DNA of 40,211 nt, from positions 1 through 40,211 of the IMG/VR virus record IMGVR_UViG_3300034115_000006. One strand, given 5' to 3'. This document shows positions 35,686 to 40,211 of this stretch, in pieces. Under the pieces are notes generated by a model. That model saw only the letters and a program-made list of their open reading frames with translations, ran no database searches and had not been told where the DNA came from. This stretch comes from a virus. The position numbers and the translations under genes are program-made. Within the stretch, counting starts at the first letter, position 1; the number at the start of each line of letters is the position of its first letter.

Positions 35686-36048
35686 CTAGCCCATCCTCGC
35701 GAAGAGGGTCCGCATGTTCGCCATCACCCTCGCGCCCATCACCCGGATTGTCTGCAAGATAATTCCGTTGACGCCTCCGAACCGGACCTCCAGCCATATG
35801 CCGTATGGGACACCGTGTGCGGCGATGATTGAAGAGGAGGTCCCGCCGTGCTCAGTCCTCGCGCTCAAGGAGTTCCGGGCGTTGGTCGTCTGGTCCTGCC
35901 ACGGCGCGTTGGACTTCATGTAGTTCTCGACCTGCGGCCGGGAATACTCCATCACCGCAACCATGCCCTTGATGATCTTCTGATCAAGCTCACCAATGTT
36001 CTCGAACAGCGACCGATCCACCCACACGAAGTCCGGACCCTTAGCCAC
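35686..36048 (-). CDS. Neck / HK97 gp10-like protein (120 aa)
   Basis: GTG at 36048 chosen: it overlaps the previous stop and lies close to GAGG; a longer frame to 36096 is noise. Features: FVWVDRSLFENIGELDQKII, MVAVMEYSRPQVENYMKSNA, PWQDQTTNARNSLSARTEHG, VPYGIWLEVRFGGVNGIILQ. The PW..T.NAR..L motif followed by a GIWLE strand is typical of HK97 gp10-like head-tail joining proteins. Links the connector to the tail. Confidence 0.8.
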   Translation of the reverse strand: MAKGPDFVWVDRSLFENIGELDQKIIKGMVAVMEYSRPQVENYMKSNAPWQDQTTNARNSLSARTEHGGTSSSIIAAHGVPYGIWLEVRFGGVNGIILQTIRVMGARVMANMRTLFARMG

Positions 36049-36409
36049 GGTACACAACCTCAGCCTTAGTCTGGTACGAACGGTCTGGGTGCACAAACAC
36101 GACCTCGTACTTCACGCCGTCAATGTAGAACCAATCTCCATTCTCAATGTCGGCTCCATACTCGCCGAGCAGGATGAACTCCGGAGTTAGGCTCTGGCCC
36201 TCGATAGTTCGCCGTTCGGGAAGCTGCTGCACCGAGGCAATGAGCATCATCGACTTCCCGCGAACCTGGCGCTGGTTGGTCCGGTTGAACGAGCCTCCAT
36301 CCCACACCAAGTCTTCGCGGGAGAGCAACGGGACAATCTTCGACGGGTCGCGAGCGATGACCTCCGCTGTGTTGCGGCGGTTGGCCTCTAGCTCGGCTTG
36401 TCGGTTCAT
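36041..36409 (-). CDS. Head closure (stopper) protein (122 aa)
   Basis: ATG at 36409 (MNRQAELEANRRNTAEVIAR) overlaps the previous stop (ATGA); the frame upstream to 36598 is noise. Then a small beta barrel: SFNRTNQRQVRGKSMMLIAS, IEGQSLTPEFILLGEYGADI, ENGDWFYIDGVKYEVVFVHP. The G-D-x-F/W-x-(I/V)-(D/N)-G strand pair is typical of head-completion (stopper) proteins. Seals the portal before tail joining. Confidence 0.75.
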   Translation of the reverse strand: MNRQAELEANRRNTAEVIARDPSKIVPLLSREDLVWDGGSFNRTNQRQVRGKSMMLIASVQQLPERRTIEGQSLTPEFILLGEYGADIENGDWFYIDGVKYEVVFVHPDRSYQTKAEVVYRG

Positions 36410-36750
36410 TCGCGAACGATCGGCCGCACTCGGGTTCCCGTCCCAGCTGGTGCCGCTCCGGCGTCGCCTTCCTCGGCCAACTCTGTGTACTTCTCCCACA
36501 TCTTGAGCGCCATCGGGTGAAGTTGGCTGTTCTTGCGGGAGGAACCGGACTCGCTCACGTCCGTCAACTCCGCGTAGCGAGCCGCCTTCTTCTCCCACCC
36601 ATCAGCGGCAGCCGCCTCCAACGAGGTAGCTCCCGCCAAGAGGAGGTCGATGTCGCGCGACTCCCAAGCAGAAGTCGTGTCCGTCTCGCCAATCATCTCG
36701 CGGACGCGACGCCTTGCATTGTCCACGTCGGCCGGGATCGGTGTCGCCAT
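36406..36750 (-). CDS. Head-tail adaptor (114 aa)
   Basis: ATG at 36750, TAATG overlap with the previous gene and ATGA overlap with the next. Helical: IPADVDNARRRVREMIGETD, WESRDIDLLLAGATSLEAAA, LKMWEKYTELAEEG. The short helical build with a D-x-(D/E)-(L/I)-x-x-x-L helix pair agrees with HK97 gp6-like/SPP1 gp15-like adaptors that sit under the portal. C-terminus is flexible (GTGTRVRPIVRE). Confidence 0.7.
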   Translation of the reverse strand: MATPIPADVDNARRRVREMIGETDTTSAWESRDIDLLLAGATSLEAAAADGWEKKAARYAELTDVSESGSSRKNSQLHPMALKMWEKYTELAEEGDAGAAPAGTGTRVRPIVRE

Positions 36751-37103
36751 TAGTCGCCGCTCCTCGCGTGCGGGTGGACCCAGATGCTACCGGCCCGCAG
36801 AACGGTTTCGTTGGTCGTGCTTCGCTTCCACACGACTGAGTAATACATCTCCACAATCTCGTCAGTATTGAAGCTGGCCACCAACGTAGGGTCGTCAGGG
36901 ATTGTGATGCGGAAGATATCGGCAGAGATGTACGTTCCGTCCACACCGATTTCCGCGCTAGCGTCCACAACCGAGAGGTCGCGCTTGGCCGTGAAGCGAA
37001 CGGTGTCGGTATTGAGGAAGCCTCCGGCGATGGCAACCGGCGCGACATCGAACACGGCCTGCTCACCGCGATAGATGTCTAGGTGCACGGTATCAAAGCC
37101 CAC
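36750..37103 (-). CDS. Virion beta-sandwich protein at the head-tail junction (117 aa)
   Basis: GTG at 37103 with AGGAGG six bases upstream. Beta-rich: VHLDIYRGEQAVFDVAPVAI, NTDTVRFTAKRDLSVVDASA, SADIFRITIPDDPTLVAS, VEMYYSVVWKRSTTNETVLR. This resembles the N-terminal domain of BppU-like or similar small beta-sandwich virion proteins, but here it is among head-tail genes. Role unknown; probably structural. Confidence 0.65.
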   Translation of the reverse strand: MGFDTVHLDIYRGEQAVFDVAPVAIAGGFLNTDTVRFTAKRDLSVVDASAEIGVDGTYISADIFRITIPDDPTLVASFNTDEIVEMYYSVVWKRSTTNETVLRAGSIWVHPHARSGD

Positions 37104-39770
37104 TCATTTCCTCCTGGTGATATCGCCGGAAGGTCTCTCATACGTCAGTGTTGAAGTATCGCGCCGGAGTATACCCTCTGGACGGCCTCGACTGACGTCA
37201 CCTGATCCGCCTACGTCGTTGATGTCTCCCTCTGGCCGGACGTACGGCTGTGGCTCTTGCCCACCTAGGCGGAGGATTGGCCTCGCGCTATCTGTCTCGA
37301 CAGCCACGCCGACCGCGACGAGCTTCCGACGCGAGAAGGAAAACGCAGAGGAGGTCTCCTGCGCACGTCCAATCGTCCTGGACTTCGCCCGGCCCATCGG
37401 CTGCGCTATCTGCGAGTCAATTGCCCGCCCAACTGCACGCTCCTTCCGGCGCGAAAAGGCGAACGCAGTATTTGTCTCAACAGCTACACCGACAGGCCTC
37501 GACCTTTGTGCACGGATTGTCCCTGCAGTGTCAATCTCTGTGGCCCGGTTTACCGGTATGTTCTTCGTGCCAGCTGAGGTGATCGGCCGAGCGGTGTCGT
37601 TCTCAACCGCTGGCCCGTACGTCTTGGACTTGAATCGGGTCAACGGCCGCCCAGTATCCGTCTCTGTTGCGACGTTGACGGCTCGGATCTTGGTCTCCGT
37701 CAGCGCTGTTGCGGTATCCGTCTCGGTAGCTCGCCCGATGGCCTTATTCTTACTAGGCGGAATGGTTCTTGCGGAATCCGTCTCTATGACCTGGTTAACG
37801 AGCTTTTCCTTGCGCCTCGAAACTACGCCCGCCGTATCTGTTTCAGTCGCCCGGTTTACCGCACGCTGCTTCGTCCGAGCTAGCGCCGTTGCCGTATCAG
37901 CCTCCGTCGCAGTCGCGAGGGTCCGCTGCTTCCTCCTCGCGAATGGCGTGGCGGTATCGGTCTCAACCGCTGGGCCGAAAGTGATGCGGGCCGGGAGAAC
38001 GAAGCGCGTGGCTGTCTCAATCGACGTGGCCTGGCCAATCGTCCTCCGCTTCTGCGGGGTAATCGACATCGCCAGGTTCGTCTCGACCGCTTGGCCGATC
38101 GTGCGCTGCTTGCGACGAGCAAACGCCTGGGCTATCTCGTTGGTCGTTGCCTGACCAATCGTCCGCTGCTTTACCCGGCCGAAAGGTTGCGCGGTATCGG
38201 TCTCGGTAGCTCGCCCGGCCGTAGCCTGCTTCTGCGGAGCAATCGGCCGAGCGGTATCTGTCTCAACTGCTGGGCCGATGGCGTCGAGCTTTACCCGGCC
38301 GAAAGGTTGCGCCGTATCAGTCTCGACTGCTTGCCCGACATTGACGTTAGTCGCGCCACCGCCAGCAGCATCATTGAGCGGCCGGAACGCACCCAGGAAT
38401 GCGAGCTTCTCATCCGACGAAGAGTTGCTACCGACGAGGCTGCCCGTAGCACCATCGGCATACTGGACCTTAGTTGCAACCGTGATGTTGGGCTGCTGAA
38501 TGTGTTCAGTAAAGCCGGACGGCTGCGTCCAGTCGCTAGCGCCATTGATCCCAGAGCCGGTCCAGAACAGCAGACGATCATCACGAGGAGGCATGACCTC
38601 GGTCGCCGGAGTGTTCGTCCCATTACCAACCGCCGTCTCGTGATCCACCGTCGTGTCGAACGGGTCTCCGGTAAGAACTGCGGCAGATATTGTTGTCGCA
38701 GTTGCCGTCCGCTCACACGATCCGGTCCAAGTGAAGTTGTATGTCCCAGAATCGCCTCCGGTTAGCCGCTTCCACCATATCTGATCCCGGAGACTTCCAG
38801 AGTTCTGGTCCTTGCTTGACTTCAGGTTCCATGTGCCGTCCGGAGGAGTCACTCCAGTGGGCAGTCCGGCACCAGAGTCCTCGAACAGAAAATGGATAGC
38901 AACGACCTTGTCGGCAGTGTCCGCATCAGCAGGAACTGGGACATTACCTGAAGTCGTTGGCCCGACATACGTTATGAATGTCGTCAGGCCAGGAACCGGG
39001 ACCTTGCTACTCGTTCCCTTAATCTCCCACACGGCCATCCGGCCGCGTTCCTGAACCGGCGTCCGGTTCATCGGCACGCTTACGGTCGCAGGAGGAGTTA
39101 CCGGAACAGTACGCCGGGCGAAGACGCCACCGGAGGTCGCGCCAGTCGCGATGTCGGACTCCGCGATGAACGTCGCACCAGACCCGGCTGAACCTGTTGT
39201 GGCGTCCCAGTTTGCGATCAGTCCGAGGACAAGGCTCTGGTCTCGCTGGGTTGCAATAGTCTGGTAGTCCACAGGGTCGCCATCGGAGCTGGTGTGCGTC
39301 CCGACCCCTAGCGCACCAAGCCAGTCAGCTACGTCATGGTGTGAGACTTCGCCAACCCAGCCACCAATTGGATCAACGTCATCAGCGCTGAACGTAACCG
39401 TCTGCGAAACGTCGTTGGTATCATTGACGAGCTTCGCCCAGACGCCAATCGCGGTTTGGAGGCTATCACTGTTGAAGTGCCGCCTGGTGATCTCAACCCA
39501 AGACTCCGTTAGCGAGTCGGAGATGGAGATACCGTTGAGGTTCGCCCCAGAGGTCGAGTCAGCCCAAGCTGCCGCGACGAGGAGCCGCCCAGACTTCGGC
39601 GTGAAGCTACCAGTCGTCGTGGAGGTCGCAGTTGCGGCCGGAGCCGTCCCTATCAAGCTCCTCCACAGTGGAGGGACAACCGGCAGGAGCGGAGCCGATG
39701 GATAGAATGGTCGCTTGTAACCACGCCGCCGTAGCAGGTGGTATATCAGGAGGTCTTTTGGGTATGGCAC
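37104..39770 (-). CDS. Repeat-rich virion protein, candidate head fibre/decoration (888 aa)
   Basis: GTG at 39770, weak ribosome binding site, 14 bases after the previous stop. Begins MPYPKDLLIYHLLRRRGYKR, then two related beta-rich domains: LLVAAAWADSTSGANLNGIS with WVGEVSHHDVADW, and VVAIHFLFEDSGAGLPTGV with WTGSCERTATATTISAAVL. From about residue 478 to 837 come some 18 tandem ~20-residue repeats with core AVETDTAxP followed by a basic R/K segment and ending IG. The C-terminus is a Pro/Gly/Arg tail. Position ahead of the connectors, not after the tape measure, points to the head. Function inferred. Confidence 0.75.
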   Translation of the reverse strand: MPYPKDLLIYHLLRRRGYKRPFYPSAPLLPVVPPLWRSLIGTAPAATATSTTTGSFTPKSGRLLVAAAWADSTSGANLNGISISDSLTESWVEITRRHFNSDSLQTAIGVWAKLVNDTNDVSQTVTFSADDVDPIGGWVGEVSHHDVADWLGALGVGTHTSSDGDPVDYQTIATQRDQSLVLGLIANWDATTGSAGSGATFIAESDIATGATSGGVFARRTVPVTPPATVSVPMNRTPVQERGRMAVWEIKGTSSKVPVPGLTTFITYVGPTTSGNVPVPADADTADKVVAIHFLFEDSGAGLPTGVTPPDGTWNLKSSKDQNSGSLRDQIWWKRLTGGDSGTYNFTWTGSCERTATATTISAAVLTGDPFDTTVDHETAVGNGTNTPATEVMPPRDDRLLFWTGSGINGASDWTQPSGFTEHIQQPNITVATKVQYADGATGSLVGSNSSSDEKLAFLGAFRPLNDAAGGGATNVNVGQAVETDTAQPFGRVKLDAIGPAVETDTARPIAPQKQATAGRATETDTAQPFGRVKQRTIGQATTNEIAQAFARRKQRTIGQAVETNLAMSITPQKRRTIGQATSIETATRFVLPARITFGPAVETDTATPFARRKQRTLATATEADTATALARTKQRAVNRATETDTAGVVSRRKEKLVNQVIETDSARTIPPSKNKAIGRATETDTATALTETKIRAVNVATETDTGRPLTRFKSKTYGPAVENDTARPITSAGTKNIPVNRATEIDTAGTIRAQRSRPVGVAVETNTAFAFSRRKERAVGRAIDSQIAQPMGRAKSRTIGRAQETSSAFSFSRRKLVAVGVAVETDSARPILRLGGQEPQPYVRPEGDINDVGGSGDVSRGRPEGILRRDTSTLTYERPSGDITRRK
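37260..38338 (-). repeat. About 18 tandem 60-bp coding repeats
   Basis: Period about 60 bases (20 codons) inside the 888-residue gene. Units at protein level include GQAVETDTAQPFGRVKLDAI, GRATETDTAQPFGRVKQRTI, GPAVETDTATPFARRKQRTL and GVAVETNTAFAFSRRKERAV. One unit carries two extra residues (AVENDTARPITSAGTKNIPV). Copies are diverged at DNA level, so the array is old or under selection rather than freshly expanded. Confidence 0.85.
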
Positions 39771-39784
39771 GAGTGCCTATGGGG

Positions 39785-40211
39785 TCAGGCGTTCATGACC
39801 AAGACGTTGAGATAGTCCACCTGAACCTGGTTGGCTGCGTTGGAGACGGAGAATGCAGCGCAGACTCCGAAGCACCAGTTGATGGTCGTGTCGCGGGTCA
39901 CGGTCCTCGCAGCGGCCGTAACCGGAATCGCGTTGGCGGAGAAGGCGGTGAGGCTCGTACCGAACTCCAAATCACCTTGGCCAAGAATCGTCCCGGAGGT
40001 CCCGTCCACAGTGATGAGCCCTAGGTACTCCATCCTCCAAGGGATCGACGTCAACGCGGTGCAGGCGATAGCCGCGCTCTGGGCGAGGATACTCGTGATC
40101 GCAGCAGGCTGCCCGGTAGCTCCCGGCAGACCCGCATAGATACCAAGCTGAAGCGTCGGTGTTGCTGTCGCGCCCCAGTTCCCTTGAACCTCAACCTTGA
40201 TCCGGACGCCA
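39785..40211 (-). CDS. Structural protein, 5' end beyond the window
   Basis: Frame open from the right edge to TGA at 39785; 141 residues visible. Begins here with VRIKVEVQGNWGATATPTLQ, followed by IYAGLPGATGQPAAITSILA, WRMEYLGLITVDGTSGTILG and WCFGVCAAFSVSNAANQVQV, ending YLNVLVMNA. It is a beta-rich, Ala/Thr-rich sandwich typical of phage appendage or capsid decoration proteins. It lies upstream of the repeat protein in the head part of the late operon. No named family is recognised. Confidence 0.7.
   Translation of the reverse strand, partial: GVRIKVEVQGNWGATATPTLQLGIYAGLPGATGQPAAITSILAQSAAIACTALTSIPWRMEYLGLITVDGTSGTILGQGDLEFGTSLTAFSANAIPVTAAARTVTRDTTINWCFGVCAAFSVSNAANQVQVDYLNVLVMNA

Follow-up and report, generated by a model that had tools for sequence, protein, structure and literature searches.

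A period-20 repeat protein and its upstream partner as a candidate adaptor-fibre cassette of phages

An 888-residue phage protein with a 20-residue repeat, hereafter REP, appears to be the shaft and head of an adhesin fibre on the virion surface, docked by a small adaptor, g153, a partner of ~155 residues encoded upstream; we put the probability of this reading at about 0.6. REP is encoded in the window, a stretch of 40,211 nt comprising positions 1 to 40,211 of the IMG/VR record IMGVR_UViG_3300034115_000006. The observations behind the reading are the repeats themselves, their linkage to g153, the resemblance of the g153 fold to fibre-attachment proteins, the swapping of modules at the N-terminus, and the shifts in where the cassette lies in the genome.

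The open reading frame, placed at 37104-39770 by an earlier note on this DNA, has exactly these coordinates and lies on the minus strand (Table 1). A longer contig, L001, matches the window without a difference across 11,105 bases and extends the locus. Its genes run in the order portal, MuF-like, scaffold, major capsid protein (MCP; PHROG 3990, E 5e-111), 201, 126, 153, 233, REP, 117, 114, 185, Neck1-like, major tail protein, chaperone and tape measure. Because the MCP precedes REP and the connector and neck genes follow it, REP falls on the head side of the connector module, where the same note had placed it. The gene between g153 and REP, g233, has relatives downstream of g153 in four further contigs (L010, L073, L075 and L099) and could be an optional third component of the cassette. 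A short gene also occurs ~0.4-0.6 kb upstream of g153 in L062, L054, L159, L169, L192 and others; it is similar to Hiyaa gp9 in Streptomyces-type loci and to the 126-aa gene of the window phage in L062, and in Hiyaa itself gp9 sits further upstream of the g153 homologue. A capsid surface protein is a possible, putative identity for this gene. A 359-aa open reading frame on the plus strand (37075-38154) covers the repeats and bears a weak likeness to them (28% identity). It was rejected as an artefact, being on the strand opposite to the genes and an apparent by-product of GC-rich repeated codons; a match to Aeromonas phage 13AC503A, likewise antisense to the genes, was set aside on the same grounds.

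Table 1. Features of the REP locus. Positions are those of the window unless a contig is named.
Feature	Position	Strand	Remark
REP, 888 aa, GTG start	37104..39770	(-)	also on L001, 100% identical
First N-terminal domain, residues 23-262	38985..39704	(-)	close relative not detected
Second N-terminal domain, residues 271-464	38379..38960	(-)	homologues in cluster J phages and L044
Repeat array, 18 units x 20 aa, residues 477-842	37245..38342	(-)	PHROG 14065, E 7e-32
C-terminal tail after repeats, 46 residues	37107..37244	(-)	
g233, C-terminal part	39785..40211	(-)	complete on L001:7285-7986, between g153 and REP
g153 partner	L001:6824-7285, outside window	same as REP	716 bp upstream of REP
117-aa gene next to REP, start of connector module	36750..37103	(-)	
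Neck / tail completion, Neck1-like	35686..36096	(-)	PHROG 5, E 3e-4

The repeats of REP follow the consensus A-V/I-G-x-A-x-E-T-D-T-A-x-P-I/F-x-R-x-K-x-R, with unit starts exactly 20 residues apart save for one 2-residue insertion after unit 13. Lag-20 identity is 0.378; 2,000 shuffles, examined over lags 5 to 60, never exceeded 0.159. A profile HMM built from these same units scores REP at 394 bits with 18 units, and the PHROG 14065 match is independent of that HMM. The earlier count of some 18 diverged units is thus sound, and so is the alternation of acidic and basic segments that had been described: columns 7 (E in 15/18) and 9 (D in 12/18) are acidic, and columns 16-20 are rich in basic residues. 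Since pairwise identity between units averages 38% for amino acids and 49% for nucleotides, the array would be old rather than the product of recent slippage, and we infer from its sequence that it has been kept through selection on spacing, not through recent duplication.

The repeat is found well beyond the window phage. A scan of viral contigs with the consensus repeat gave 48 loci. Across 90 distinct repeat proteins the arrays range from 4 to 39 detected units, and the N-terminal domain may be present or absent. In two contigs (L210 and L196), a second short repeat of ~10 residues (xVPAExRxxxV type) follows the period-20 array and ends the C-terminus. Annotated phages with a recognisable repeat are the Streptomyces phages Hiyaa, Keanu, Spocter and Galactica, and a scan of bacterial genome contigs found the repeat to be rare, with three loci. 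The partner occurs in several hundred uncultured viral contigs, its cultured records being confined to five Streptomyces phage records and one from a cyanophage, Pam4 (L060), whose g153 is clearly related to that of actinobacterial viruses. A cellular gene family was rejected because g153 is rare as a host gene: of 395 other genomes sampled within the same phylum as the Streptomyces record, just 2 have it. Sequence searches of Pfam, NCBIfam and PDB with full-length REP gave nothing useful, and literature searches on the repeat motif and on Hiyaa returned nothing relevant.

What form the array takes has to be judged against a full-length AlphaFold model of REP that is poor (mean pLDDT 35.6). 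In this single-chain model, no secondary structure is predicted for residues 480-840, where pLDDT is ~25. The beta-solenoid proposed in the earlier note, with structure prediction as its check, therefore gains nothing from the model, although an oligomeric fibre is still compatible with what is a monomer prediction. A solenoid held together by acid/base ladders is quite improbable. Small and Thr residues do alternate in the window array, and its acidic and basic columns are regular, but the strands are missing, and the numbers of acids and bases show no positive covariation across units (r of -0.07 within the same unit, -0.08 with the previous one and 0.02 with the next) and are anticorrelated between family proteins (r -0.45). 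The suggested pairing of acid and base thus finds no support at either level, which makes a conserved salt-bridge ladder unlikely as a general rule; moreover, the base column is much less conserved across the family (K in 60% at position 18) than the acids (E in 93% at position 7, D in 80% at position 9).

The low pLDDT and the absence of strands would also suit an intrinsically disordered, charged tether, as would the composition of the window array, which has few bulky hydrophobics and lies on the disorder boundary in a charge-hydropathy plot. We nevertheless regard a tether as unlikely, since across the family the repeats are without exception on the folded side of that line and are strongly constrained. 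Spacing is exactly 20 in 74% of 1,110 unit steps, hydrophobic residues occupy position 2 in 98% of units and position 14 in 97%, and position 11 is Ala in 89%, in addition to the Glu column at position 7. The period of 20 even persists in relatives that have lost the ETDTA motif. Obligate oligomeric fibres often defeat single-chain structure prediction. A folded shaft, probably oligomeric, is preferred here.

The main result is the linkage of the repeat to g153, whose family corresponds to PHROG 26662 and to Hiyaa gp12. In nearly all repeat loci with upstream DNA, g153 lies upstream on the same strand as the repeat gene, mostly at 0-4 kb; the exceptions are truncated loci, L045, where the order is reversed, and L058, in which g153 was not detected by the profile. 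To test the reciprocal case, 160 loci were fetched by g153 alone with the repeats disregarded, and contigs found via the repeat or having <5 kb downstream were left out. Among the 92 loci retained, 54 have HMM-detected repeats downstream of g153 and a further 21 have just a period-20 or -40 signal in a downstream ORF, so that a period-20 repeat protein follows g153 in 75/92 (82%). Repeats lie upstream of g153 in just two of the 92 loci, and none of 489 upstream control ORFs has that period. The linkage is directional, with the repeat protein downstream.

The structure model of g153 is confident (pLDDT 93). Among PDB folds it comes closest to chain 9d93_Ra, gp31 of mycobacteriophage Bxb1, annotated as 'tail wing arm' (prob 1.00, E 0.024). 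The match is weak by E-value, with TM of 0.39/0.55 (0.55 by target length) over ~88 columns; a separate sequence-profile search with g153 lists the same chain at E 0.95. Matches in BFVD include several 'tail-collar fiber protein' entries (prob 0.7-0.9) and a protein of Agrobacterium phage Atu_ph07, a phage described as bearing hair-like capsid fibres (PMC12796354). No Pfam family convincingly related to g153 was found. None of these matches is strong alone; taken together, the fold, profile and BFVD matches point to a protein of the fibre-attachment type.

In contrast to the repeats and g153, which are the constant parts of the system, the N-terminal domain is its variable part. Among the 90 distinct family proteins, 35 begin their repeats almost immediately and 53 have N-terminal regions of >120 aa, which fall into 34 sequence clusters. 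Pfam domains in these regions are Laminin_G_3 (three proteins), Ig_2 (one) and Big_7 (one), and N-termini of single members match Hoc-like, head, tail, minor tail and baseplate PHROGs. With the N-terminal domains of REP as query, a single-protein search returned the same virus only. Of the two sandwich-like domains that had been ascribed to REP, the second is borne out: residues ~272-362 form a fairly confident beta fold (strands at pLDDT ~60-86), and the domain is homologous to the C-terminal domain of a cluster J mycobacteriophage tail-region protein (E 4e-14) and to a stand-alone gene adjoining g153 in L044. The first domain yielded neither a relative nor a confident model. Near the cluster J proteins lie a gp31-like gene and a DD-carboxypeptidase annotated as 'minor tail protein'. 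Constella gp35 (L004:8492-8896) is gp31-like (wing arm) and precedes gp37, whose C-terminal domain is homologous to domain 2 of REP. Parts of the REP system thus recur in mycobacteriophage tail modules.

Hiyaa, Pam4, Constella and L001 supplied the reference proteins by which genomic settings were assigned, and the cassette occurs in three settings: the interval between MCP and adaptor, shortly before the terminase and portal, and after tape-measure and baseplate genes. Examples beside baseplate or tail genes are Pam4 gp34-36, L201 and L185. Searches with one portal or one tape-measure family matched few contigs, as such families are diverse. Changes of placement were counted on a maximum-likelihood tree built from 59 g153 proteins. 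Nine changes are required for the pre-terminase placement, of which supported branches force at least eight, and five for the tail placement, at least four of them forced; the head placement is clustered, yet four changes are needed. With the cassette in several settings and its placement changing repeatedly, gene position is an unsafe guide to location on the virion. The earlier note had favoured the capsid over the tail from gene location, an argument that is not decisive, because the same cassette also lies before the terminase and, in Pam4 and relatives, in the baseplate region.

If g153 attaches to the surface or the vertices of the capsid, REP would project from the head as a capsid fibre or decoration. 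This is possible, no better than tentatively so. The pair does lie between the MCP and the head-tail adaptor in the window phage, in Hiyaavirus and in many prophage-like loci, and both the Hoc-like and head-protein matches in single relatives and the BFVD match to Atu_ph07 fit a capsid location. These points have to be set against the other two placements, each of which arises repeatedly on the tree, and against the top fold match of g153, which is a tail part. That match is the starting point for the other location, in which g153 acts like Bxb1 gp31 and REP forms a brush or fibre on the tail, as a tail-tip wing or side fibre. Pam4-type loci, with the pair directly after tape-measure and baseplate genes, agree with a tail location, as do the homology of REP domain 2 to the cluster J tail-region proteins and the carboxypeptidase and gp31-like genes near the latter. 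In the window phage, however, the connectors have the pair on their head side and the tail genes are elsewhere, and its neighbours are MCP-side genes and connectors, with no Bxb1-type DD-carboxypeptidase wing-base gene beside it. A tail location is likewise possible, and no less tentative.

Whichever part of the virion carries it, the proposed arrangement is one in which g153 would dock REP to the particle, the period-20 array would form an elongated shaft of variable length, and the N-terminal domains would be interchangeable modules for binding polymers of the host or the environment. The fibre proposed in the earlier note survives in this form: the repeat is consistently linked to a protein that resembles fibre-attachment parts, and its lectin- or Ig-like N-terminal domains are swappable. 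The solenoid of that note and its capsid location deduced from position are not supported. The structural-gene surroundings in the window phage, Hiyaavirus and Pam4 also back a fibre. Counting against it are the repeat pLDDT, equally compatible with a disordered tether, and the N-terminal position of the globular domain, where present. Many phage fibres are anchored via the N-terminus, which leaves the predicted polarity of a REP fibre ambiguous. A wider reading, put forward with some reserve, is that of a widespread, undescribed adhesion cassette made up of a free-standing adaptor, a new fibrous 20-residue fold and interchangeable domains. The cassette would move as a unit between head and tail gene positions, so one and the same fibre could conceivably sit on the capsid of one phage and on the tail of another. 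A fibre cassette, if that is what it is, would offer a sequence handle for predicting the adhesins of soil and actinobacterial phages. With Hiyaa, Keanu and Galactica, all Streptomyces phages, the idea is testable, including that of one adaptor-fibre unit serving both heads and tails.

The closest known counterparts are the gp12-gp13 pair of Hiyaavirus (Hiyaa, Keanu and Spocter) and gp10-gp11 of Galactica, in which, as in the window phage, a g153 homologue is followed directly by a period-20 protein, the pair sitting between the MCP and the head-to-tail adaptor where annotated. They differ in that the repeats are strongly diverged from ETDTA and the N-terminal domain has no detectable relation to that of REP; the proteins are annotated merely as 'minor tail' or hypothetical. 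Pam4, a Pseudanabaena siphophage with a reported 73.6% G+C (PMC9382816), has a g153 homologue in gp34 (51% identical) and, by eye, a few repeat-like units in gp36, but its genes follow the tape-measure and baseplate genes, and gp36 is larger, with other regions. PHROG 14065 and PHROG 26662, which match the repeat region and g153, respectively, carry no assigned function. The cassette is kept apart from the tail-wing, Hoc and phi29 head-fibre families because their defining features are absent or not decisive. Bxb1 gp31 (PDB 9d93), the best fold match and a weak profile match of g153, has ~20% identity to it over 88 columns and adjoins a carboxypeptidase gene and the glycine-rich gp33, with no ETDTA repeat beside it. 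The REP of the window has no Ig or Hoc match, the likeness to Hoc being limited to the N-terminus of one relative. The phi29-type head fibre is a supercoiled trimer of helix-turn-helix repeats; for the repeats of REP no helices are predicted, in a model of low confidence. The capsid fibres of phages 7-7-1 and phiCbK, which are flexible and make the first contact with the host (PMC12796354), are analogous in function alone. The best reading places the cassette, whose repeat and partner have no Pfam family, with the known 'phage fibre with adaptor' type.
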